DNA of 35,000 nt from the NCBI RefSeq assembly GCF_016584665.1, contig NZ_BBJB01000076.1, forward strand, positions 1 through 35,000, written 5' to 3'. This DNA comes from Pseudanabaena sp. lw0831. GTDB lineage: Bacteria; Cyanobacteriota; Cyanobacteriia; Pseudanabaenales; Pseudanabaenaceae. A program made the position numbers and the translations under genes. The notes below the pieces were generated by a model. The model was not told the origin of the DNA, did no database searches, and worked only from the letters and a program-made list of their open reading frames with translations. Position 1 is the first letter of the stretch, and each line of letters opens with the position of its first letter. Shown here piece by piece: positions 6,462-27,471 of the stretch.

Positions 6462-6970
6462 ATTTTGCTTGCGAACATGCTTATAGCTGTCGCGCTTTTT
6501 GGGTTTTGATAAGAAGTATTAACAATATTATCTCGATCAAAAACCAGAATTTTGAATCATAGCCAACAAAGCGCGTAAGAATCCATCAAAAGGAATGCAT
6601 CGCGCTCTTTTTGATGGTCAAGCTGGTGGGGCATGTTCTCAAAATTCAGGGATTTATCAGGAAAACTTGAACTTTTGTGAAGTGCTTGCCCTGTATGCGT
6701 TACACTAATTTGATTTGAAGACAAAGCCCTGAAAGTATTTCAGGGAGAGCGTTTCAGCGATCAAACAAAGAATTGTGGCAATAAGTATTTAAAAAAAACT
6801 GCTCAAATCCATACAAATTAATCGTTGTGTATATACACAAGTGGCAAGTTGCTATTAGAATGATCAAACAGAAGTCATAGTCAGTGCGGCTTCCACAAAA
6901 AGCGATCGCACAAATATTTCTTTGACATTAAACTCATACTCACAAATCATCTATATATAAGGGGAAACCT
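6462..6970. other. Divergent intergenic region upstream of the HU gene
   Basis: 509 bases between the minus-strand EamA gene and the HU gene. It holds an imperfect stem (CCATCAAAA 6583-6591 with TTTTGATGG 6609-6617), a short hairpin (CCCTGAAA 6727-6734 with TTTCAGGG 6738-6745), a 16-bp perfect palindrome at 6825-6840 and a HIP1 site at 6902-6909. A TTGACA lies at 6922-6927, but I cannot place a convincing -10 at the right spacing. I see no ORF worth calling. Confidence 0.55.
6825..6840. promoter_or_regulatory. 16-bp perfect palindrome, possible operator upstream of HU
   Basis: TTGTGTATATACACAA is a perfect inverted repeat without a spacer, about 130 bases before the HU start codon. Its TGTGT/ACACA ends resemble a CRP-family site, but it does not match the usual TGTGA-N6-TCACA. 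The binding protein is unknown. Confidence 0.35.
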
Positions 6971-7270
6971 ATGAACAAAGGTGAACTAGTTGATGCTATT
7001 GCTAAAAAAGCTGCCGAAAAGGGCTTGTCAGTCAATAAAAAGACTGCCGACGAAGTTCTTTCTGCAACGCTTGAAGTAATCATCGATACTGTAGCTGGCG
7101 GAGACAAAGTAACTTTGGTTGGATTTGGCTCCTTTGAAGCTCGCGATCGCAAAGCCCGCGAAGGTCGCAACCCTAAGACTGGCGAAAAGATGGAAATTCC
7201 TGCTACTAAGGTTCCTGCCTTCTCTGCTGGTAAGTCCTTCAAAGAACAAGTCAGTCCTCCTTCTGACTAA
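6971..7270 (+). CDS. hup: HU family DNA-binding protein
   Basis: 99 residues, normal HU length (about 90) plus a short tail. The N-terminal helices (MNKGELVDAIAKKA) and the GFGSFEARDRKAREGRNPKTG segment with the DNA-binding beta-arm match the HU/IHF family exactly. HU bends and compacts DNA and is the main nucleoid protein in cyanobacteria, probably acting as a homodimer. An AGGGG ribosome binding site lies just upstream of the ATG. A strong hairpin terminator follows 6 bases after the stop, so it is a single-gene unit with a long upstream region. Confidence 0.96.
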   Translation: MNKGELVDAIAKKAAEKGLSVNKKTADEVLSATLEVIIDTVAGGDKVTLVGFGSFEARDRKAREGRNPKTGEKMEIPATKVPAFSAGKSFKEQVSPPSD

Positions 7271-7276
7271 TTCTTG

Positions 7277-7314
7277 AAAAAAAGAGGAAGCGCTTTAGCG
7301 CTTCCTCTTTTTTT
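7277..7314. terminator. Intrinsic terminator of hup, symmetric
   Basis: Arms 7277-7294 and 7297-7314 pair perfectly: an A-tract, then GAGGAAGCGCT and its complement, ending in a run of seven T. It is immediately after the hup stop and is symmetric enough to work in both directions. An upstream reading frame of the next gene would have to run through it, which supports the later kinase start. Confidence 0.9.
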
Positions 7315-7372
7315 ATTGACAAGCTTACAAATACACTCAAGACTAGATAAAAGTCACGAGCTTGCGAGAATC

Positions 7373-9283
7373 ATGACTAATCTACTGTCCAATCGTTATC
7401 AAGTTCTGCGAGTGCTTGGCTCAGGTGGATTCGGTCAAACTTTTTTGGCGGAAGATACACAGATGCCATCGCGACGGATTTGTGTGATCAAGCAACTTAA
7501 GGCGATCGCAGATAATCCTGATGTTTATAAAATTGTGCGCGATCGCTTTCAACGGGAGGCGGCGACGCTGGAGGCCTTGGGCAAAGATAACGGACTTGTG
7601 CCAGAGCTTTATGCATCATTTTGCGAAGATAACGAGTTTTATCTTGTTCAAGAATGGATTGATGGCAAAGATCTGAGCGATATTGTTCATTCTGAAGGAT
7701 GCTTGACAGAAGCTAAGGTTAAAAAAATCTTACTGGATCTATTGCCGACATTGGGTTATATCCATGAAAAAGGGATTATTCATCGTGATATTAAGCCCGA
7801 AAATATTATTTTGCGGAATCGCGATCGCCAACCTGTATTGATCGATTTTGGGGCAGTCAAGGCAACATTGGCAACGGCGATGACGGCTCAAGGAGATGTG
7901 ACTTGCTCGGTGGTAATAGGTACTCCCACATTTATGCCCTCGGAACAGGCGATCGGGCGGGTGGGATTTGCTAGTGATTTATATAGTTTAGGCTTAACGG
8001 CGATTTTTTTGTTAACGGGAAAATTAAGTTCTGAATTAGATACCGATCCTCAAACTGGGGAATTATCATGGCAGCGCTATGCAGATAATTTTAGCCCTGC
8101 ATTTGTAGGATTTTTAGACAAAGCGATTAGGTTAAATTTTCGCGATCGCTATGCCACAGCTAACGAGATGCTGGCGGCTTTGCGATCGCTTTTTGACGAT
8201 TCAACCACGATTATTACGATGCCTCAGCAAAATTCATCAAGTGAAAGTACTGAAGGTAATGCGATCGCCTTGGAATCAACGGAAGGACAAGTAGCGATCG
8301 ATTCGCAGTTTTATATCCCATCGGGTTATGAACCTCGGTGTTATGAAGAAATCAAGAAAGCAGGATCGCTATTGCGGATTAAGTCGCCACATCGCATGGG
8401 CAAGTCTTCGTTAATGGCGCGAATTATCAATCATGCTGAAGTTCTGGGCTATCGCACGGCGGTTTTAAATCTGGAGCAAACCAATCAGAAAATCTTCGTC
8501 GATCCCGAAAAATTTATGCAGTGGTTTTGCGCTTCTGTCGGCAAGTCTTTGGGCGTGCGGGTTAAGACTGATGAATATTGGGATGATATTTTTGGCGCAA
8601 ATGATAACTGTACAGACTATTTCGAGAAATATTTATTAGAGGGTAACGAACAACCGCTAGCGATCGCGATTGATAACTTCGATCGCGTGTTTAGCTATCC
8701 CGAAATCGAGACAGATTTTTGTGGCTTGTTGCGCGGCTGGTATGAGCGATCGCGTAGTCATCCTCTATGGGGTAAGCTGCGCCTGATTATCGTACATTCT
8801 CAAGAACCTTACGCCCAAAGAGACATTAATCAATCACCTTTTAATGTCGGGTTTCCTGTGGAACTGAGCGAATTTACAACGGAGCAAGTGCGGGAACTCG
8901 TTAAGCGGCACAAGCTAATTTGGACAGACGAGGAGCTTCAACAATTTATGGAATTGATTGGCGGACATCCTTATTTAGTGAGATCGGCGCTCTATCGGAT
9001 TGCTTCGCAAGATATTACTCTGGAAGATTTTTTGCGGACTGCTCCTACTGAGGCAGGAATTTATAGCAGTTATTTAATGGGACATCTCAAAACTCTGGAG
9101 GACTATCCCGAACTGGGTGAGGCGATGCAAAAGGTGGTCGCGGCAGATGCGCCAGTGCGTTTGCGATCTGAAATCAGTTTTAAGCTCGATAGCCAAGGAT
9201 TAGTATCGCGGATTGATAATAATGTCACGCCGCGCTGTTTGCTGTATAAGTTGTATTTTCGCGATCGCTTAGGAGGTAGTTAG
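7373..9283 (+). CDS. Ser/Thr protein kinase fused to an AAA-like (AAA_35-type) ATPase domain
   Basis: 636 residues from the ATG at 7373; the frame extends upstream to 7274 but would cross the hup terminator. Kinase domain, residues 8-275: glycine loop GSGGFG 16-21, ATP-site Lys40, HRD 137-139, DFG 158-160, all intact (Hanks-type). A linker (280-305) leads to an AAA-like NTPase (about 307-635) with a P-loop variant HRMGKSSL at 340-347, typical of large cyanobacterial signalling proteins. No membrane helix. Its stop codon directly abuts the start of the next gene, whose AAA-like domain is homologous, so the two proteins are probably made together and may assemble through their ATPase domains. 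Substrate and signal are unknown. Confidence 0.9.
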   Translation: MTNLLSNRYQVLRVLGSGGFGQTFLAEDTQMPSRRICVIKQLKAIADNPDVYKIVRDRFQREAATLEALGKDNGLVPELYASFCEDNEFYLVQEWIDGKDLSDIVHSEGCLTEAKVKKILLDLLPTLGYIHEKGIIHRDIKPENIILRNRDRQPVLIDFGAVKATLATAMTAQGDVTCSVVIGTPTFMPSEQAIGRVGFASDLYSLGLTAIFLLTGKLSSELDTDPQTGELSWQRYADNFSPAFVGFLDKAIRLNFRDRYATANEMLAALRSLFDDSTTIITMPQQNSSSESTEGNAIALESTEGQVAIDSQFYIPSGYEPRCYEEIKKAGSLLRIKSPHRMGKSSLMARIINHAEVLGYRTAVLNLEQTNQKIFVDPEKFMQWFCASVGKSLGVRVKTDEYWDDIFGANDNCTDYFEKYLLEGNEQPLAIAIDNFDRVFSYPEIETDFCGLLRGWYERSRSHPLWGKLRLIIVHSQEPYAQRDINQSPFNVGFPVELSEFTTEQVRELVKRHKLIWTDEELQQFMELIGGHPYLVRSALYRIASQDITLEDFLRTAPTEAGIYSSYLMGHLKTLEDYPELGEAMQKVVAADAPVRLRSEISFKLDSQGLVSRIDNNVTPRCLLYKLYFRDRLGGS

Positions 9284-12200
9284 ATGACTAATAATTTTAG
9301 CTATCAAGTTGGCGGTAGTTTACCGATTGACAATACTGCTTATGTGGAGCGCCAAGCCGATCGCGAATTATGCGATCGCTTGAAAGCTGGTGAATATTGC
9401 TTTGTGTTTAACTCGCGACAGATGGGCAAGTCGAGTTTGCGGGTACGCACGATACAAAAGTTGCAAGAGGAGGGTTTTGCATGCGCGGTGATCGATCCGC
9501 AGACGAGGGGGACAACCTTGCGCGAGGATCAATGGTATGCGGGGACAATCAAACGCTTGATTGGAGATTTGCATTTAGAAACTGCGATCGACTTTCCGAA
9601 ATGGTGGAAGGAACTTGATGCTCAATCAATTTCAGTAGTGGAACGTTTTGACTATTTTATTGAGCAAACCTTACTGCCGAATATTCCGCAAAAGATCGCG
9701 ATTTTTATTGAAGAAGTTGATAACCTGCTCAGTCTCAAATTTGATACAGATGGATTTTTTATTTTGATTCGCTCGTTGTATGAGCGTCGTGCAGAGAAGC
9801 CAGAGTATAAGCGCTTGACCTTTACTTTTTTGGGAGTTGCCACGCCTGCGGATTTGATCCGTGGTAAGGGAAGTTCGGCATTTAATATTGGTCATGCGGT
9901 GGAGATGAGTGGGTTTACGCTGCAAGAGGCGGAACCTTTGGCGCGAGGTTTAGCAGATCGGGTTAGCGATCCAGTGGCGGTTTTGGCAGCAATTTTGGAT
10001 TGGACGGGTGGGCAACCTTTTCTGACGCAAAAACTTTTGACGTTAATCGCGGCGGCGGATGATTTGGGGAGATCGCCTGATCAGCTTGTAAGTGCGATCG
10101 CAACTGAGAAGGTGATTGAGAATTGGGAAGCTCAGGATATTCCCGCGCATTTGAAGACATTACGCGATCGCATTTTGCAGAGTGATGAGAGGGGACGGGG
10201 GCGATTATTGGGTTTGTATCAGCAGGTTTTGGATGGTGATGGTATTGCTGCGGATGAGAGTTATGACCAGATGCAGTTGCGGTTAACTGGGTTGGTGGTG
10301 AAGCGAGACGGGCGGTTGATTGTTTACAATCGGATTTATGGGGCGGTGTTTAATCAAGCATGGGTAAGTCGTGCGTTGGGGGATATGCGTCCAACTTTTT
10401 ATGGCTCGGCTTTTCAGGCTTGGCAGGAGAGCGATGAGCAGAAGGAGTCGTTTTTGTTGCGGGGTCAGGCGTTGGTGGATGCGGAGGCTTGGGCTAAGGG
10501 GAAAAGATTGAGTGATGAGGATGAGCATTTTTTGCGCGATAGTCGGGAGGTGGAGAAACAAGAAAGCTATCTCAAGCTAGAGGCGGAACAACAGGCGCGG
10601 GAGGTTGCAGAACAGGAACGGTTAATTGCGGTTAGGCAACAGAAAATAGCTGAGGAGGAGGCAAGGATTTTAGGTGATGCTAAACAAAAGGCAGATCGCA
10701 GAGTGAAGGTTGGTTCTGCGATTTTGGGGATAACGTTGTTATTGGCAACGGGTGCGGGTTTATGGGCGGCGCGATCGGTTAATGAGTCTAACCAAAGGAT
10801 TGCTAAAACGGAACAGGACGCAAAGGGGGTAATAGACAAGGCAAAAAATATTGAAGATAATGCCTATCAGGTACAGAAGAAAGCGGCGATCGATAAAAAG
10901 AAATCTGAAGATAGTGCCAAAACTGCGTTAGAGAAGAAACAGGAGGCTGATCGAAAGGTTGAGGAGGCAAAGGAAAATTTAGCGAGTGCAGAGAAAAAGC
11001 TAGAAACTGTTGATCGCGAATCGAAGGAACAATTAGATAAAGCGAGTCAAGAGGTTCAGGAAGCTAAAATAAGAGTGTCTCAAGCATTACAAGAACAGCA
11101 AAAAGCTCAGAAAGATGTAGAAGAACAAATAAGCAAATCGCAAAAAATCCAGTCAGAGATAGCAAAGAAGGCAACCGAATTCTCAAAGTTGAGTGTTGAA
11201 TTTGAACAGGTGCAAAATCAAGTGAGATTGGCTCAGCAAGCAATTATTGAAAATGTTGGTGATGCTCCAGCTAGAATTGAGCGCCAAACAGGACAAAGAC
11301 CTGCGATCGTTTATATTAGCTTCATCACTTCTGAAAGTAATAGCAAGGCGAATGACACTCTTGGGATTTTAATCATCACAGCCAAAGGTCAAGTATCAAA
11401 TCAAATACTTATAAAAAAGTCGGAATTTGACAATCTAATTGCTGATTTTCGTAATGGTATTCAAGATAAAGGCAGCGAAGACTATTTAGAGTCAGCCAAA
11501 AAGTTATATGAAATTTTGATAAAGCCTATAGATTCAGAATTGCAAAAACAGAAAATCAATAATCTTGTTTTCATTACTGACAATCCTTATTTAAGAGCCA
11601 CACCTTTGGCAGCACTATATGATGGCAAACAATTTTTAATTGAGAAATACAGTATTGGGGTGATGCCTGGTTTAAATTTAACTGACACTCGTTACACAAA
11701 TATCAGGAATTCAAATGTATTAGCAATGGGATTATCAAAAGCTAAATTTGGTTTCCCTAAACTCCCTGGTGTAGAAAAAGAACTAACTGACATTAAATCT
11801 TTTTGGAAAGGTGGATTTGAAGTTTTCTTGAATGAAGATTTTACATTAGAAAATTTTAGATCTCAGAGTCAGAAGAAATTTTTTCAAATTATCCATATAT
11901 CGTCAACTGGTCAAATTCTCGCAAGTAAAGGAGCTTATTTCTCGATGTGGGATATACATATAAGCCAAGACAAATTTGATCTTTTAGAGCTAGAAAAGTC
12001 TTCAATAGAATTGCTTGTATTAAGCATCCCTCAAACTGGTCTTGGGAATAGAGATACAAGTGGAGTTGAAACTAAGTTTGGTCTTGCGGGTCAAGCTATT
12101 AAATCTGGTATTAAATCAGTTTTAGCGAGCTTATTTAATGTGGACGATCTAGGAACAGCGACACTAATGACTGAGTTCTATAAATATTTAAAAACTGCAC

Positions 12201-12364
12201 CAACAAAATCTGAAGCACTCCGTCAAGCACAAATTTCTATGCTAAGAAACACTTTAAAAGTGAAAGAAAATATTTTTGAAATTGACGAACGACTCCCTAC
12301 TCCAGCTAATTTTTCACATCCATATTATTGGTCAGGTTTTACAATTATCGGCAATCCTTGGTAA
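9284..12364 (+). CDS. AAA-like ATPase, TM, coiled coil, degenerate CHAT domain protein
   Basis: 1026 residues, starting immediately after the upstream stop with an excellent AGGAGGT at 9271-9277. Order: AAA-like NTPase (about 8-360; P-loop RQMGKSSL 45-52), charged helical region (370-470), one membrane helix (about 474-496), long Lys/Glu-rich coiled coil (500-655) and C-terminal CHAT (caspase-HetF) fold (about 672-1026). Active CHAT proteases have HxxxH and SACQTG; here they read HISST (871-875) and SIPQTG (914-919), so the catalytic His is Thr875 and the catalytic Cys is Pro916. The domain is therefore probably a non-catalytic binding module. The 3' part is AT-richer than the 5' part and lacks HIP1 sites. 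A WD40-protein-like tail relic follows the stop codon. Domain identity is good; the role is unknown. Confidence 0.88.
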
Positions 12365-12475
12365 AAATTCTGCCTATTAATCCTTGGCTGCAATAAACTC
12401 AACGACTATCTCTCCACCAACCCCAACGCCACAGACAGCGACAGACAAATGTGTGGTATTGAGCCAAGGAAAAAG
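12365..12475 (+). pseudogene. Relic of a WD40-protein C-terminal tail, in frame after the CHAT stop
   Basis: Directly after the TAA at 12362-12364 the same frame stays open and reads LILGCNKLNDYLSTNPN, then DSDRQMCGIEP. This resembles the conserved tail found after the last WD40 blade in many cyanobacterial AAA/WD40 proteins (GCxWLxDYLxxNPN..D+.LC..I). It has no start codon or ribosome binding site of its own. I read it as the left-over 3' end of an ancestral AAA-WD40 gene. The tail family is recalled from memory, not searched. Confidence 0.6.
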
Positions 12476-12544
12476 GGGAAAATTCGGATTAAACTAGACA
12501 ACAACAGGGACAATCAAAACCTTTTCATTATGGAGGTCTGCAAG

Positions 12545-12853
12545 ATGCTCGATACACCAACCCAATATATGCACATCCAACTTCAAGGCAACGTACCCAT
12601 CATTGCAGGTACAACCATGAAAGTCGTCGAGCTAGTCACATCGCACATCACCTATGGCTGGAGTCCCGAAGAACTGCATTTTCAATATCCCCATATCGCC
12701 CTCAGCAAGATCTATTCCGCCCTCGCCTACTACTGGGATCACAAACAAGAAATTGATACCGATATCCAGCGCCGACTAGACTATGCCGAACAAATGCGCC
12801 TAAACGCTCCCATCTCACCATTGCAAGCCAAACTTCAAGCAAGACCCCATTAA
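12545..12853 (+). CDS. DUF433 family protein, probable antitoxin
   Basis: 102 residues from the ATG at 12545, chosen because GGAGGT (12532-12537) lies 7 bases ahead; longer in-frame starts (12449, 12530) run into the WD40-tail relic. The core (NVPIIAGTTMKVVELV, then GWSPEELHFQYPHI, then ALAYYWDHKQEID) matches DUF433, a winged-helix-like family commonly paired with DUF5615 PIN-like toxins. It is followed after 3 bases by such a gene, so it is the likely antitoxin and autoregulator. Confidence 0.88.
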   Translation: MLDTPTQYMHIQLQGNVPIIAGTTMKVVELVTSHITYGWSPEELHFQYPHIALSKIYSALAYYWDHKQEIDTDIQRRLDYAEQMRLNAPISPLQAKLQARPH

Positions 12854-12856
12854 GAT

Positions 12857-13204
12857 ATGGCGATCGCACTCTACATGGACGAAAACGTGCCGCGCCAAAT
12901 TTTACTTGGATTGCGTCTGAGAGGAGTAGATGTACTTTCCGTTCAAGAAGATCAGCGATCGGGCGATCCAGATCCGATAGTTTTAGCGAGAGCCAACGAA
13001 TTAAAGAGAGTCTTATTCACCAGAGACGATGATTTTTTAGCGATCGCCAATCAACTACTGCAAGACGAGACTAACTTTATTGGCATCATTTACGCAGCAC
13101 AACAAATTGCGAGTATAGGAGTTTGTGTAAGGGATTTAGAACTAATTGCCAAAGCAAGCGATTTGGAAGACTTTGCTAATCATATTCAGTATCTACCGCT
13201 ATAG
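12857..13204 (+). CDS. DUF5615 PIN-like protein, probable toxin
   Basis: 115 residues. The N-terminus ALYMDENVPRQILLGLR has the conserved Asp-Glu of DUF5615/Mut7-C-like PIN proteins. A second acidic patch, FTRDDDFLAIA (about residues 54-64), fits the PIN-like metal site. The family is thought to be ribonuclease toxins, although few members have been tested. It lies 3 bases after the DUF433 antitoxin gene, so the pair is co-translated. A gene encoding an RHH protein follows 17 bases later. Confidence 0.87.
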   Translation: MAIALYMDENVPRQILLGLRLRGVDVLSVQEDQRSGDPDPIVLARANELKRVLFTRDDDFLAIANQLLQDETNFIGIIYAAQQIASIGVCVRDLELIAKASDLEDFANHIQYLPL

Positions 13205-13221
13205 CCTACAGGAAATAAACC

Positions 13222-13536
13222 ATGAGTAGATTAACCCTTCGATTACTAGATACATTACACCAACAATTAAGCCACTTAGCCAAGAGAGAAGGAGTCTCTC
13301 TCAATCAATACATTGTCTACGCTCTAACCCGAAAATCTTCCACAGCTTACACTGTTCAACCAATTCCCCAACAAGAAGTTAAACAACAACAGTCAGACTT
13401 CACCAACCTTTTGCAAAAGCTAGGAAAAGCACCCTCCACCGAAATAGCCTTGCGCGATCGCGAAATCATTCAACCAGAAAAGGAGCTAACGCCTGAAATC
13501 ATTGCTCAGTTTCAGCAATGCCTCGCTACATCATAA
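13222..13536 (+). CDS. Ribbon-helix-helix antitoxin-like protein without an intact toxin partner
   Basis: 104 residues. The N-terminus (RLTLRLLDTLHQQLSHLAKREGVSLNQYIVYAL) is a ribbon-helix-helix DNA-binding fold of the HicB/Arc type. The C-terminal half is acidic and disordered-looking, as in antitoxins that wrap a toxin. An AGGAA ribosome binding site precedes the ATG. It is 17 bases after the DUF5615 gene, in the same unit. An overlapping ATG at 13518 opens a frame (MPRYII...) that stops after 23 codons inside the opposite hisI gene; it may be a vestige of a lost VapC-type toxin. Confidence 0.82.
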   Translation: MSRLTLRLLDTLHQQLSHLAKREGVSLNQYIVYALTRKSSTAYTVQPIPQQEVKQQQSDFTNLLQKLGKAPSTEIALRDREIIQPEKELTPEIIAQFQQCLATS

Positions 13537-23557: not shown

Positions 23558-24085
23558 CTACTTATTAGCTGTCACTCTTACTGATTGAGCGATCGCGTTA
23601 ACATTTGAAGAACCTGACAAAAATTTATCTAATGATTTCGCGATCAAAGTGTCAATCGCATAGTTGCCCCCACCATAAACTGCGAAAAAGGCAAAAGACA
23701 CTGCATAAATTGAGGATAACTCAATGGATGGGATCGAGAAACCACCAATCAAGATGTGGTGATAGTTAGCTACAAGCATAGTTGTAAATAAACCTAAAGC
23801 CGCTGGTCTAGTTAAAAACCCAAGAATTAGCAAAGGCGCGGCAACCACTTCAGTAATTGCTGCGCAGTAGGCAAAGAAAATCGGAAAAGGTAACCCGATC
23901 GCCTCGACATAGGCTTCAGCAAATCCAGAAATATCCGCAAGTTTATCGAAACCGTTATGAATAATCATCGTCCCAAGGACAACCCTAAGCAGAAGAAGAG
24001 AGGCTTGAGTTAACGAGACTGGGGCAGAGTCTGAACCGAGAATTAGGCGAACGATTGAAGCGGCGATGCGAGTTGTATTGTTCAT
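23558..24085 (-). CDS. DoxX family membrane protein
   Basis: 175 residues with about four membrane helices. RVVLGTMIIHNGFDKLADISGF and AAPLLILGFLTRPAALGL are typical DoxX/DoxX-like blocks. The family is broadly linked to thiosulfate:quinone oxidoreductase subunits and to redox stress, but most members are uncharacterised. No oxidoreductase partner is next to it; it is followed by its own hairpin and preceded by a 354-base divergent gap. Confidence 0.88.
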   Translation of the reverse strand: MNNTTRIAASIVRLILGSDSAPVSLTQASLLLLRVVLGTMIIHNGFDKLADISGFAEAYVEAIGLPFPIFFAYCAAITEVVAAPLLILGFLTRPAALGLFTTMLVANYHHILIGGFSIPSIELSSIYAVSFAFFAVYGGGNYAIDTLIAKSLDKFLSGSSNVNAIAQSVRVTANK

Positions 24086-24439
24086 TTCAGCGCATTAGGT
24101 AATAGTTTAGTTAATAAAACTTAAAAGATTGCAATAATTCATAACTTATATACATTAATCTTAACATAAGTTTTTATAATGCCACTCATCCAATAATTAA
24201 AAAAGTATTGAGGCTTATGGGTCTTGCCATTCTTTGGGTTAGATGACGCGCTAAAAGCTTTGTCAAACATTTGACTTTTTGGTTGTGCTACGATCGCAAA
24301 CTAAGCAATCTTTATATATTGCCTAAAATATAAAATCCCAGAAGTTGGGCTGCCCGCCGTGCGGGCAGCCCAACTTCTGGGTCTGTGTTACTTACAACAT
24401 TAAAATTCTAAGAAATTCTTAACTATTAGAGCGAAGTCT
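24086..24439. other. Divergent intergenic region between doxX and rseP
   Basis: 354 bases that should hold both promoters. Its main feature is the perfect hairpin at 24337-24381, 58 bases before rseP. The AT-rich part near doxX (24100-24200) is likely its promoter region, but I cannot place clear -35/-10 boxes. I see no ORF worth calling. Confidence 0.55.
24337..24381. repeat. Perfect 21-bp inverted repeat upstream of rseP
   Basis: Arms 24337-24357 and 24361-24381 pair perfectly (CCCAGAAGTTGGGCTGCCCGC, loop CGT). It is GC-rich, has no T-tract and lies between two divergent genes, so no gene ends here. It may lie in the rseP leader. Confidence 0.88.
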
Positions 24440-25528
24440 ATGTCTGCCTTGCCTGCAATTGCCGTTCTTGCGATTCTGATTTTAGTTCACGAACTCGGTC
24501 ACTTCATGGCTGCTCGCGTACAGGGCATTCATGTCAATCGATTTTCGATTGGGTTTGGTCCCGTGTTATGGAAATATCAAGGCAAACAAACAGAATATGC
24601 ACTCCGAGCAATTCCCCTTGGCGGCTATGTTGGCTTTCCTGATGATGATGAAGAGAGCAACATTCCTAATGACGACCCCAATTTGATGAAAAATCGTCCG
24701 ATCATGGATCGAGCGATCGTAATCAGCGCAGGAGTAATTGCCAATTTTGTCTTTGCTTACTTAGTTTTATTAGTAATGACATTGAGTGTTGGCATCGGCA
24801 CAGTCGATCAACCAGGGGTAAGAATCACAAAAATTCTTGAGCCAAATGCACCCGCAGCGGTTTCAGGTCTGCAAGCTGGCGATATCGTCCTATCAGCAAA
24901 TGGGACAAACTTTGACACTAACCTCACGACGCTCGATCGCTTTCAAACTTTGATTTCTAAAAATGCCAATCAAAACGTTGATTTGCAAGTAATGCGCGAT
25001 GGCAAATTGTTACAAGTGCCAATCTTGCCCGATGGCGAATCAGGCAAAGGTCGAATCGGCGTAAGACTAGACTTCACTGGAAAGCCTCACCGTCGAGCTG
25101 TGAAAAACCTTGCCGAAGCTTTTGACAATGCTACCCAGAGTTTTGAGCGTTTAGTAGTGATGACTGTCCAAGGGCTGAAACAACTGGCTACCAATTTTAA
25201 GAATACGGCTTCTCAACTATCTGGCCCCGTAGCGATCGTGGCGATGGGTTCTGAGTTAGTTAAGTCTGATGCCGCAGCATTATTTGATTTCACAGCAATT
25301 ATTAGTATTAACCTCGCAATTATCAATATTTTGCCCTTACCTGCTCTGGATGGTGGTCAATTAGTATTTTTGGCGATCGAGGCTTTACGCGGTGGTAAGC
25401 CATTGCCTGAAGAATTACAAAATAATGTCATGCAAGGCGGCTTAGTAATTCTCCTCGGTTTAGGCGTAGTGATGATTTTCAAAGACTCATTTAACTTGCT
25501 TCAACAAAGCGGATTAAGTCCTTTATAA
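24440..25528 (+). CDS. rseP: RIP metalloprotease (site-2 protease)
   Basis: 362 residues, normal for the short single-PDZ forms. The zinc motif HELGH is at 17-21 in the first membrane helix, a PDZ domain lies at about 124-200 (PGVRITKILEPNAPAAVSGL), and LPALDGG near 305 in a later helix supplies the third zinc ligand. It cuts membrane-spanning substrates such as anti-sigma factors within the inner membrane, releasing stress regulators; the substrate here is unknown. It is a single gene between hairpins at 24337 and 25530. Confidence 0.95.
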   Translation: MSALPAIAVLAILILVHELGHFMAARVQGIHVNRFSIGFGPVLWKYQGKQTEYALRAIPLGGYVGFPDDDEESNIPNDDPNLMKNRPIMDRAIVISAGVIANFVFAYLVLLVMTLSVGIGTVDQPGVRITKILEPNAPAAVSGLQAGDIVLSANGTNFDTNLTTLDRFQTLISKNANQNVDLQVMRDGKLLQVPILPDGESGKGRIGVRLDFTGKPHRRAVKNLAEAFDNATQSFERLVVMTVQGLKQLATNFKNTASQLSGPVAIVAMGSELVKSDAAALFDFTAIISINLAIINILPLPALDGGQLVFLAIEALRGGKPLPEELQNNVMQGGLVILLGLGVVMIFKDSFNLLQQSGLSPL

Positions 25529-25529
25529 A

Positions 25530-25578
25530 AACCCAGAAAATAAAGGCGGCGCTTTGCGCCGCCTTTATTTTCTGGGTT
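25530..25578. terminator. rseP 3' hairpin with 23-bp arms
   Basis: Arms 25530-25552 and 25556-25578 pair perfectly around loop TTT; outer end AACCCAGAAAATAAA, cap GGCGGCGC. It begins one base after the rseP stop. There is no terminal T-run, but TTTATTTT lies in the right arm. It shares the AACCCA end with hairpins at 15191 and 31720. Confidence 0.88.
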
Positions 25579-25677
25579 GATGATTGCAACGTAGGTATAA
25601 ACACAAAGTTTTTTGTCAACTTCAAGCATAATAGATAAAGAAATAATAAGTTTTTCGATCAACTCGATACATCACCC

Positions 25678-27471
25678 ATGTCTCTCCCTATCCGCAATGT
25701 CGCCATCATCGCCCACGTCGATCACGGCAAAACCACTCTAGTAGACGCACTTCTCAGACAGTCAGGCGCTTTTCGTGAAGGTGAAGCCCTTGTCGAATGT
25801 GTGATGGACTCCAACGACTTAGAGCGTGAGCGGGGCATTACCATACTTTCAAAAAATACTGCTGTTAAATACAAAGACACTTTAATCAACATCGTTGATA
25901 CCCCAGGACACGCCGACTTCGGTGGCGAAGTTGAGCGCGTACTTGGCATGGTTGAAGGATGCTTGCTAATCGTTGATGCCAATGAAGGTCCCATGCCTCA
26001 AACTCGCTTTGTGTTGAAAAAGGCGTTGGAAAAAGGCTTGCGTCCAATGGTAGTAATCAATAAAATTGATCGCGAATTTGCCGATCCCCATGTTGCAGTC
26101 AGTAAAGTACTCGATCTGTTCCTTGAACTTGGTGCAGATGACGATCAGTGCGATTTCCCATACCTATTCGCCTCAGGAATGGGTGGATTCGCCAAAGAAA
26201 AATTAGAAGACGAAAGTGTTGATATGAAGCCGCTGTTTGAGGCGGTCTTACACCATGTGTCTCCACCTGTTGGCGATCCTGAAAAGCCTTTGCAGTTGCA
26301 AGTAACCACCCTCGACTATTCCGATTATCTTGGTCGCATTGTTATCGGTAAAATTCACAACGGGACAATTACCTCTGGACAACAGGCAGCGCTAATCTCT
26401 GAAGATGGCAAAATCGTCAAAGGTAAAATCACCAAGCTTTTGGGGTTTGACGGGCTCAAACGGGTTGAGATGCAAACCTCTTCCGCAGGTAACATTGTTG
26501 CGGTTTCAGGTTTTGCAACCGCTAACATCGGCGAAACCATCACTTGCCCTAACGAGCCTTTAGCTCTGCCGATGATCAAGGTTGACGAACCCACTTTGCA
26601 GATGACTTTCTGCGTCAACGATTCGCCATTTGTTGGACAAGAAGGCAAGCTAGTTACCACTCGTCAAGTACGCGATCGCCTGATGCGCGAACTCGAAACC
26701 AACGTGGCTTTGCGTGTCCAAGAAAATCCTGAATTCCCCGATCGCTTTGCGGTAGCTGGACGTGGCGAATTGCACCTTGGCATCTTGATCGAAACCATGC
26801 GTCGTGAAGGATACGAATTCCAAGTTACGCAGCCTCAAGTTATTTACCGTGAGCTTAACGGCAAACAGTGCGAACCTTACGAATGTCTCGTCCTTGATGT
26901 CCCCGAAGATGCGGTCGGTGGTTGTATCGAGCGTCTCGGTCAACGTCGCGCCGAAATGGTTGATATGCAAATGTCGAGCAGTGGTCGCTCTCAGCTAGAG
27001 TTTGTCGTTCCGGCCCGTGGACTAATCGGCTTCCGTGGTGACTTCATGCGCGCTACTCGCGGCGCTGGCATCATGAACCATAGCTTCCTCGATTACCGTC
27101 CTTCGGCTGGTGAAATCAGCGCCCGTCGCAATGGCGTATTGATTTCCTTTGAAGAAGGCGTAGCTACTGAGTTCTCCTTGAAGAATGCTGAAGATCGCGG
27201 CGTGTTCTTCATCAAACCAGGCACTAAGGTTTATAAGGGCATGATCATTGGTGAGAACAATCGTCCTCAAGATATGGAGCTAAACGTATGTAAGAGCAAG
27301 CAGCTCACGAACATGCGTGCGGCTGGTGCCGATGACATCGTACAGTTGCAAGCGCCTATCGAGATGAGTCTGGAACGAGCCTTGGAATACATTGGTCCCG
27401 ATGAAATCCTTGAGGTTACACCAGAATCAATTCGTTTACGCAAGCTCACCAAGAAATTTGCGAAGCGCTAA
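25678..27471 (+). CDS. typA: Translational GTPase TypA/BipA
   Basis: 597 residues, full length. GTPase motifs: G1 AHVDHGKTT (12-20), G2 RGITI, G3 DTPGHADF, G4 NKID. EF-G-like domains follow, with the BipA-specific C-terminal region ([16 protein letters not shown] and later). It binds the ribosome like EF-G/LepA and helps 50S assembly and translation at low temperature or under stress. The codon use is richer in C-ending codons than its neighbours, as expected for a highly expressed gene. Confidence 0.97.

Follow-up and report, generated by a model that had tools for sequence, protein, structure and literature searches.

Apparent replacement of a WD40 propeller by a CHAT cassette in an NLR-like AAA_35 gene of Pseudanabaena, with the end of the old gene stranded behind the stop codon

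The window analysed here is a contig of 35,000 bases from Pseudanabaena sp. lw0831, the contig ending with the window. It carries a two-gene module on its forward strand (Table 1). The stop codon of the first gene, which encodes a protein kinase fused to AAA_35, adjoins the ATG of the second, in which AAA_35 is followed by a predicted transmembrane (TM) helix, a coiled coil and CHAT. The kinase contains VIKQ, HRDIKPEN and DFGAVK, which we take to be kinase motifs, and its gene matches kinase-domain models of PADLOC-DB, such as PD-T4-6. In the second protein, both domains score far above the curated Pfam cut-offs (AAA_35, PF14516, 90.5 bits against 27; CHAT, PF12770, aa 736-1024, E = 1.1e-56, 192.9 bits against 24); the protein gave no match to an NCBIfam family or to a PADLOC-DB defence family (E <= 0.001). 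Having a P-loop NTPase (AAA_35 with RQMGKSS) and a variable, sensor-like C-terminal module, it is built like a STAND/NLR-like protein. The C-termini on related AAA_35 fronts include WD40, TPR, CHAT and others.

Table 1 Features of the AAA_35-CHAT locus (positions in the window)
Feature	Position	Strand	Evidence or remark
Upstream partner gene, protein kinase + AAA_35, 669 aa	7274..9283	+	Pfam Pkinase 4.4e-34, AAA_35 3.3e-125
Receptor-like gene, AAA_35 - TM - coiled coil - CHAT, 1026 aa	9284..12364	+	
AAA_35 (PF14516), aa 11-357	9314..10354	+	Pfam E 1.2e-25; RQMGKSS at aa 45, IFIEEVD at aa 140
Segment closest to WD40 alleles, includes the TM helix	10544..10783	+	G005 90-95%, G025 second gene 85-88%
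Predicted TM helix, aa 476-496	10709-10771	+	Sequence and hydropathy
Left breakpoint region, without near relative among compared alleles	10784..10963	+	
Putative imported cassette, coiled coil + CHAT, aa 561-1026, AT-rich	10964..12361	+	Relatives only in G012 and G025
Thr875, at the position of the second (putatively catalytic) His in other CHATs	11906..11908	+	
Pro916, at the position of the catalytic Cys in other CHATs	12029..12031	+	
Native CHAT stop codon, TAA	12362..12364	+	75/78 related CHATs stop directly after the same residue
Relic tail, stranded WD40-gene 3′ end	12372..12475	+	96.2% identity with the 3′ end of the G019 WD40 gene over 104 bp
DUF433, DUF5615 and HicB-like genes; flank, outside the receptor	12530..13536	+	Pfam; common to the WD40-bearing G005 locus

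Behind the TAA, the frame used by CHAT reads KFCLLILGCNKLNDYLSTNPNATDSDRQMCGIEPRKK. A sequence-only reading of this DNA had taken the in-frame peptide for the tail of a WD40 protein. We translated 12365-12475 and searched with it, and the similarity to WD40 tails was there: within the same genome the peptide gave six other matches at E <= 10, of which four had E < 0.05 and the best was the end of the WD40 protein C44 (65% over 34 aa, E = 3.7e-10). At the DNA level, the relic matches the WD40 gene that G019 carries at the orthologous locus, at its 3′ end (E = 2e-42; Table 1) and, with 89.4% identity, a tail in G004. Thus, a conserved C-terminal tail of WD40 genes lies behind the CHAT stop. In all three CHAT alleles (window, G012 and G025), the LLI of the tail starts three codons past the stop. 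The G012 relic is in frame with CHAT and cut short, its frame stopping after 35 codons; that of G025 keeps the spacing, is frame-shifted and has decayed on its left side. Since the same junction is present in three assemblies, an assembly chimera is very unlikely. The window relic has lost the WD40 stop codon, and its frame continues into the DUF433 gene (ATG at 12530; region 12365-12853), for which reason the ORF caller puts the DUF433 start at 12449, within the relic. Over the short stretches that could be aligned (75-111 sites), the window relic has 8 differences from the G019 WD40 tail in 108 sites, compared with 16 in 75 from the G012 relic and 26 in 111 from the G025 relic; the divergence from the G012 relic is marginally under the synonymous level of AAA (P = 0.03). 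The simplest origin of the CHAT alleles is one joining of CHAT to the WD40 tail.

The AAA front was matched in 21 of the 26 genomes of the genus, the window's own included (E <= 1e-30). Among the loci retrieved, a kinase gene with 86-95% identity to that of the window precedes a close AAA gene in five other species, directly except in G003, where the distance is about 1.4 kb. The six species with the locus comprise three with WD40-type ends (G019, G005 and G003) and three with CHAT (window, G012 and G025). In G019 and G005, the front is followed by WD40 arrays terminating in the tail (1411 and 1333 aa); G003 has a diverged WD40-like end, judged by reading, and a different tail; G012 and G025 have CHAT and then the tail past the stop. 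G019 and G005 are the relatives, with front, repeats and tail in one gene, that the sequence-only reading had proposed to look for. Together with G012 and G025, they are decisive in favour of its central proposal, that WD40 blades were replaced by CHAT and the old 3′ end was stranded. AAA-type CHAT was found in the same three genomes whichever set was surveyed (genus, 3/26; family, 3/38; sample of the class, 3/291). The flank at 12533-13524 is 87.3% identical over 998 bp to the WD40-bearing G005 locus. At two loci the arrangement differs in other ways. In G016 (L079), little is left of the kinase gene, and the AAA gene survives in fragments. In G025 (L068), AAA-CHAT and its relic are followed by a tandem AAA-WD40 gene with its own tail and, about 260 nt on, a further tail fragment.

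We compared the window allele with the other alleles in 60-nt blocks. Up to about 10543, it is mostly nearest to G012. Over 10544-10783, the WD40 allele of G005 is far closer (90-95%, against 35-58% for G012); 10784-10963 has no close relative, and from 10964 the sequence is CHAT-like. The imported piece thus starts at about 10.8-10.96 kb, not at 10172 as had been proposed. Synonymous divergence (dS) from G012 is 0.42 in the kinase, 0.42 in AAA, 3.2 (near saturation) in aa 400-480 and 0.88 in coil plus CHAT, whereas dS from G005 is 0.87 in the kinase, 0.65 in AAA and 0.25 in aa 400-480. CHAT groups with CHAT alleles, and the sequences on either side of it, the left neighbour and the tail, are closest to WD40 alleles, as would be expected had a CHAT cassette come into a resident WD40 gene by crossing over in the coil and in the tail. 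These alignments identify the window gene as a mosaic allele of a two-gene locus (kinase-AAA_35, then AAA_35-TM-coil-variable C-terminus), in which the C-terminal WD40 propeller has given way to a coil plus CHAT cassette carrying its own stop, with ~104 bp from the 3′ end of the WD40 gene left behind that stop.

Two WD40 alleles point to the tail as one of the recombination arms. From the kinase through AAA and up to the coil, a stretch of 3.3 kb, G005 and G019 share 90% identity; their WD40 arrays gave no blastn match (E <= 1e-5); and identity returns, at 91.5% for 376 bp, from ~60 nt before the gene end, inside the tail. Since identity resumes there, this WD40-for-WD40 exchange had its right border in the same tail, and the tail is probably the right-hand arm, the recombination mechanism being read from the three CHAT alleles and a few pairs.

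The composition of the gene is not uniform along its length, as the sequence-only reading had expected. GC and GC3 are 0.479 and 0.486 for aa 1-420 and 0.335 and 0.240 for CHAT, compared with means of 0.430 and 0.386 (minimum GC3, 0.323) in 19 other window ORFs of at least 150 aa, and GC3 is 0.302-0.565 in 24 generic CHAT stretches of the genus. The drop in CHAT is thus real. We rejected it as sufficient evidence of import, for which it is weak on its own, since the WD40-like end of G003 is equally AT-rich (GC 0.29-0.34). The reading had also pointed to a gap in HIP1 sites. Complete HIP1 is indeed absent between 10172 and 12859 (52 sites in the window), but 52 random sites would give 0.80 gaps of such size per window (P of at least one, 0.60), and a longer HIP1-free gap lies at 23597-26671. 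Because a gap of this size is expected by chance, it is uninformative, and we dropped HIP1 depletion as a sign of import. The WD40 halves of G019, G005 and G003 have no HIP1; the C-terminal halves of the second G025 gene, of G017 and of the window genome's own TPR paralogue C77 have one or two. We found no close donor of the CHAT: among the matches listed, the best non-AAA CHATs are ~35-47% identical, and an AAA front or tail like that of the window was seen in the DNA retrieved for none of 79 named cyanobacterial CHAT loci (tblastn, E <= 1e-3), a set in which close records of the window's genome may be missing.

We then considered whether the CHAT could be a protease. Related CHATs carry the motifs H..TH and SAC.T, whereas the window has HISST and SIPQT; G012 has HIASQ and NVGQA, and G025 has HIASP with the Cys kept. 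We take the second His to be the catalytic one because of its invariance and because of the caspase/separase pattern, which presumably marks it as such. In the AAA-CHATs, this His is lost in three of three and the Cys in two of three. By contrast, His and Cys are both present in 25 of 25 generic CHATs listed for the genus (rows with the same motifs and identity collapsed), in 79 of 79 named cyanobacterial CHATs among the matches listed, and in 15 of 15 CHATs encoded by the upstream (effector) gene of CHAT-AAA_35 loci (distinct loci with both motifs in view, the upstream gene being assigned by Pfam for one and by tblastn for the others). The window CHAT thus lacks the His-Cys dyad of an active CHAT protease. 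Its frame is intact nevertheless, and a dN/dS of 0.21-0.27 over coil and CHAT indicates that the AAA-CHAT frame is under purifying selection. An AlphaFold2 model of the CHAT (29 sequences; pLDDT 85.7, pTM 0.90) aligns with TPR-CHAT/Csx29 (8eey_B; VIA-align Z 25.6, rmsd 3.6, 310 aligned) and with separases (Z about 23), giving it a predicted CHAT/separase fold. A PDB sequence search with the CHAT profile returned no match at E <= 0.01, so the fold assignment rests on the model. The window CHAT is folded and kept but, very probably, is not a protease. CHATs in the sensor slot that have lost catalytic residues, next to generic and effector-gene CHATs that keep both, are what is new here; given this loss, the change would be a swap in the sensor slot, not the gain of a working protease.

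We consider it quite likely that the locus records a sensor-cassette exchange at a WD40 gene by homologous recombination, in which CHAT became a non-proteolytic, putative sensor or bait of an NLR-like receptor. Recombination between alleles or paralogues would use the conserved AAA/TM/coil as the left arm and the conserved WD40 tail as the right arm, and the same arms would serve the exchange of one WD40 array for another. Elsewhere, too, a gene for an output domain plus AAA_35 lies upstream of a gene for AAA_35 plus a variable C-terminus, the output domain being a kinase in the window, CHAT at another locus type and trypsin plus TIR on a Nostoc plasmid; this recurrent layout suggests that the first gene acts and the second senses. 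In this view, the protein would be a STAND/NLR-like membrane receptor that meets its putative ligand through the C-terminus and has its putative output in the neighbouring kinase. Because the cytoplasmic NTPase is followed by RRVK and a single TM helix, the C-terminus may face the periplasm, and a Nostoc homologue ending in WD40 plus Amidase_3 fits this orientation (L232, an AAA_35 fusion on a plasmid of Nostoc sp. ATCC 53789). In STAND proteins, ligand binding leads to NTPase-dependent assembly and output. By analogy, a ligand bound to WD40, TPR or dead CHAT would trigger the same kind of assembly here, with the kinase as output. As the C-terminus would face the ligand and the kinase would provide the output, a CHAT in the sensor slot would work without proteolysis, as a putative binding or bait module, which fits both the catalytic loss and the purifying selection.

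More tentatively, the sensor slot might be a plug-in site for WD40, TPR, dead CHAT and other modules, which would be traded among members of the genus by recombination in the constant front and the tail, with the dead CHAT as a putative bait for attackers that target CHAT proteases and the tail as a landing pad for re-switching. Plant "integrated decoys" are the counterpart for a dead enzyme domain in the sensor position of an NLR. We regard this extension as possible, although we would not call it likely.

Alternatively, the exchange could have been one of effectors, the receptor losing its sensor and gaining CHAT as an executioner, perhaps a non-proteolytic one or one whose active site is rearranged. 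In favour of this, CHAT is a known effector that elsewhere stands at the N-terminus of the protein encoded by the upstream AAA_35 gene, and G025 retains the Cys. The 15 effector-gene CHATs with both residues in place, set against the losses in the AAA-CHATs, speak against such a role, as does Craspase, which, according to the accessible part of the report, is inactive once Ala or Ser stands in place of its catalytic Cys (PMC9729208). We therefore think an executioner role unlikely.

The tail might instead have come separately, travelling with the DUF433-DUF5615 unit and lying behind CHAT by chance, in which case it would say nothing about the module that was replaced. Tails do occur stranded elsewhere in the genus. 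The cleanest independent case is G020, with a tail 40 nt past the stop of a gene with an unassigned C-terminus; others lie 833 nt past a short TPR-like C-terminus in G015, at 687 nt in G004 and at 259 nt behind the second gene of G025, and G017 (L076a) has a weak match 996 nt on (E = 0.004), this tally leaving out G009 L125. Behind five non-WD40 AAA genes (three TPR genes, the second AAA gene of G003 at L069, and L132), no tail was found, which speaks against stranding as a general rule. A 6.2-kb contig of G021 (L124) carries two orphan WD40 tails beside PIN-like genes (reverse complement, 132-239 and 2455-2562), and the AAA front was not found in it. Orphan tails near DUF433 or PIN genes in G015, G004 and G021 are what would favour separate arrival. 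The equal spacing from stop to tail in three species argues against it, however, and no DUF433 gene was found behind CHAT in G012 and G025. Moreover, WD40 genes at the same locus end in this tail in G019 and G005, and WD40-like sequence (10544-10783) lies on the other side of the CHAT cassette. Separate arrival is thus very improbable, and we retain the exchange of sensor cassettes as the origin of the junction.

Several candidates for orphan tails were dropped: G014 L122 and G004 L121 because of runs of N, G014 L126 and G019 L127 because they lie at contig starts, and G005 L123 because a WD40 gene is split there by an insertion sequence. In the last, a 353-aa insertion-sequence-like ORF lies inside the second-locus WD40 gene, and an identical ORF is found ~3.7 kb on (6546-7607 and 10247-11308). 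Several AAA loci of the genus (window 12530-13536; L073, L076, L120, L121, L126 and L129) are followed by DUF433 together with DUF5615 and/or HicB-like genes, the tail at times lying directly before or after the DUF433 unit; this set may be a mobile toxin-antitoxin-like unit that uses AAA loci.

The direction of the exchange could also be reversed, with CHAT ancestral at the locus and WD40 derived. A tree built from 35 AAA fronts requires no fewer than 11 changes of C-terminal type, compared with a mean of 14.6 when types are shuffled; CHAT is nested among WD40 fronts, its label needing two changes, and WD40 is the commonest C-terminus (20 of 35). The types were set partly by Pfam and otherwise by tblastn with repeat queries or by reading (e.g. 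G003); the label "SPOR" is by reading only, Pfam finding no domain there, and L137 has a very long branch. The tree is unrooted, and its change counts cannot separate gain from loss, which leaves room for a CHAT ancestor. A WD40 3′ end behind CHAT, however, requires an earlier WD40 gene, and AAA-type CHAT has the sparse distribution given above (3/26 in the genus, 3/291 across the class) while WD40 predominates on the tree; we give the reversed order hardly any credence. Least probable of all is that a new stop codon later divided a protein that once comprised both CHAT and tail. In the window and G012 the two do share a frame, but the chance of this is one in three, and the stop follows the same residue in 75 of 78 related CHATs and in all three AAA-CHATs.

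The nearest mechanistic precedent, as far as the accessible text of that report goes, is the C-terminal displacement of Rhs proteins, in which a G+C-richer constant core has an AT-rich variable C-terminus that is replaced by recombination, with the displaced sequence found downstream (Jackson et al. 2009, PMC2935791). The window gene shares the constant core, the swapped AT-rich C-terminus and the displaced remnant downstream. In the Rhs case described there, whole tips with core fragments accumulate downstream, whereas the window retains only the terminal ~100 bp of the old module (the last ~104 bp, with no AAA fragment); also, Rhs is a secreted toxin and the window gene encodes an AAA_35 membrane protein. 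NTP-dependent conflict systems of multicellular bacteria combine a constant NTPase with variable, often inactive enzyme modules, and about 70% of caspase domains in the effector position are inactive, for which a decoy role was suggested, according to the portion of Kaur et al. (2020, PMC7159879) available. The two genes of the window differ in that they showed no MoxR-vWA core, and that portion contains neither a description of AAA_35-WD40/CHAT exchange nor the word "chat". Variable C-terminal sensors on NTPase conflict proteins are also reported, in the accessible part of PMC10907252, for DGR-diversified STAND and ternary sensors; variation at the window locus, unlike theirs, consists of the exchange of whole modules. 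The window CHAT shares its predicted fold with TPR-CHAT/Csx29 (Craspase) and separase; it differs from them in the replaced His and Cys (T875, P916) and in standing behind an AAA_35-TM front in place of a TPR fusion. Among the matches listed from the open-licence literature, we found no description of AAA_35-WD40/CHAT exchange. C-terminal module exchange as such is known; at this locus it concerns an NLR-like receptor, a stranded tail bears witness to it, and the sensor slot holds a dead protease.

The exchange of C-terminal sensors on bacterial NLR-like proteins has mostly been deduced from comparing architectures. In the present case, the swap left behind a fossil of the module it displaced; the two crossover arms can be located on the sequence, and a single locus offers different alleles from several species for comparison. 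The division between intact effector-gene CHATs and dead sensor-slot CHATs yields a testable prediction of which half senses, and tails stranded past stop codons offer a simple signature for finding further sensor swaps.

Other AAA_35 proteins encountered in this survey vary as well. AAA_35 of G012, G019 and G005 (L071, L072 and L073) has an in-frame insertion, PPQPPL.KGGEE, at window position ~10240; it is absent from the window AAA_35, and a like peptide occurs in the genome's own paralogue C88 (L078). AAA_35 is joined to a C-terminal Peptidase_C14 in L137 (G015) and to TPR, GUN4 and Macro in L134 (G004). Two AAA_35 proteins encoded on the reverse complement, L119 3102-5510 and L069 14766-17045, share a C-terminal domain that has no Pfam match.
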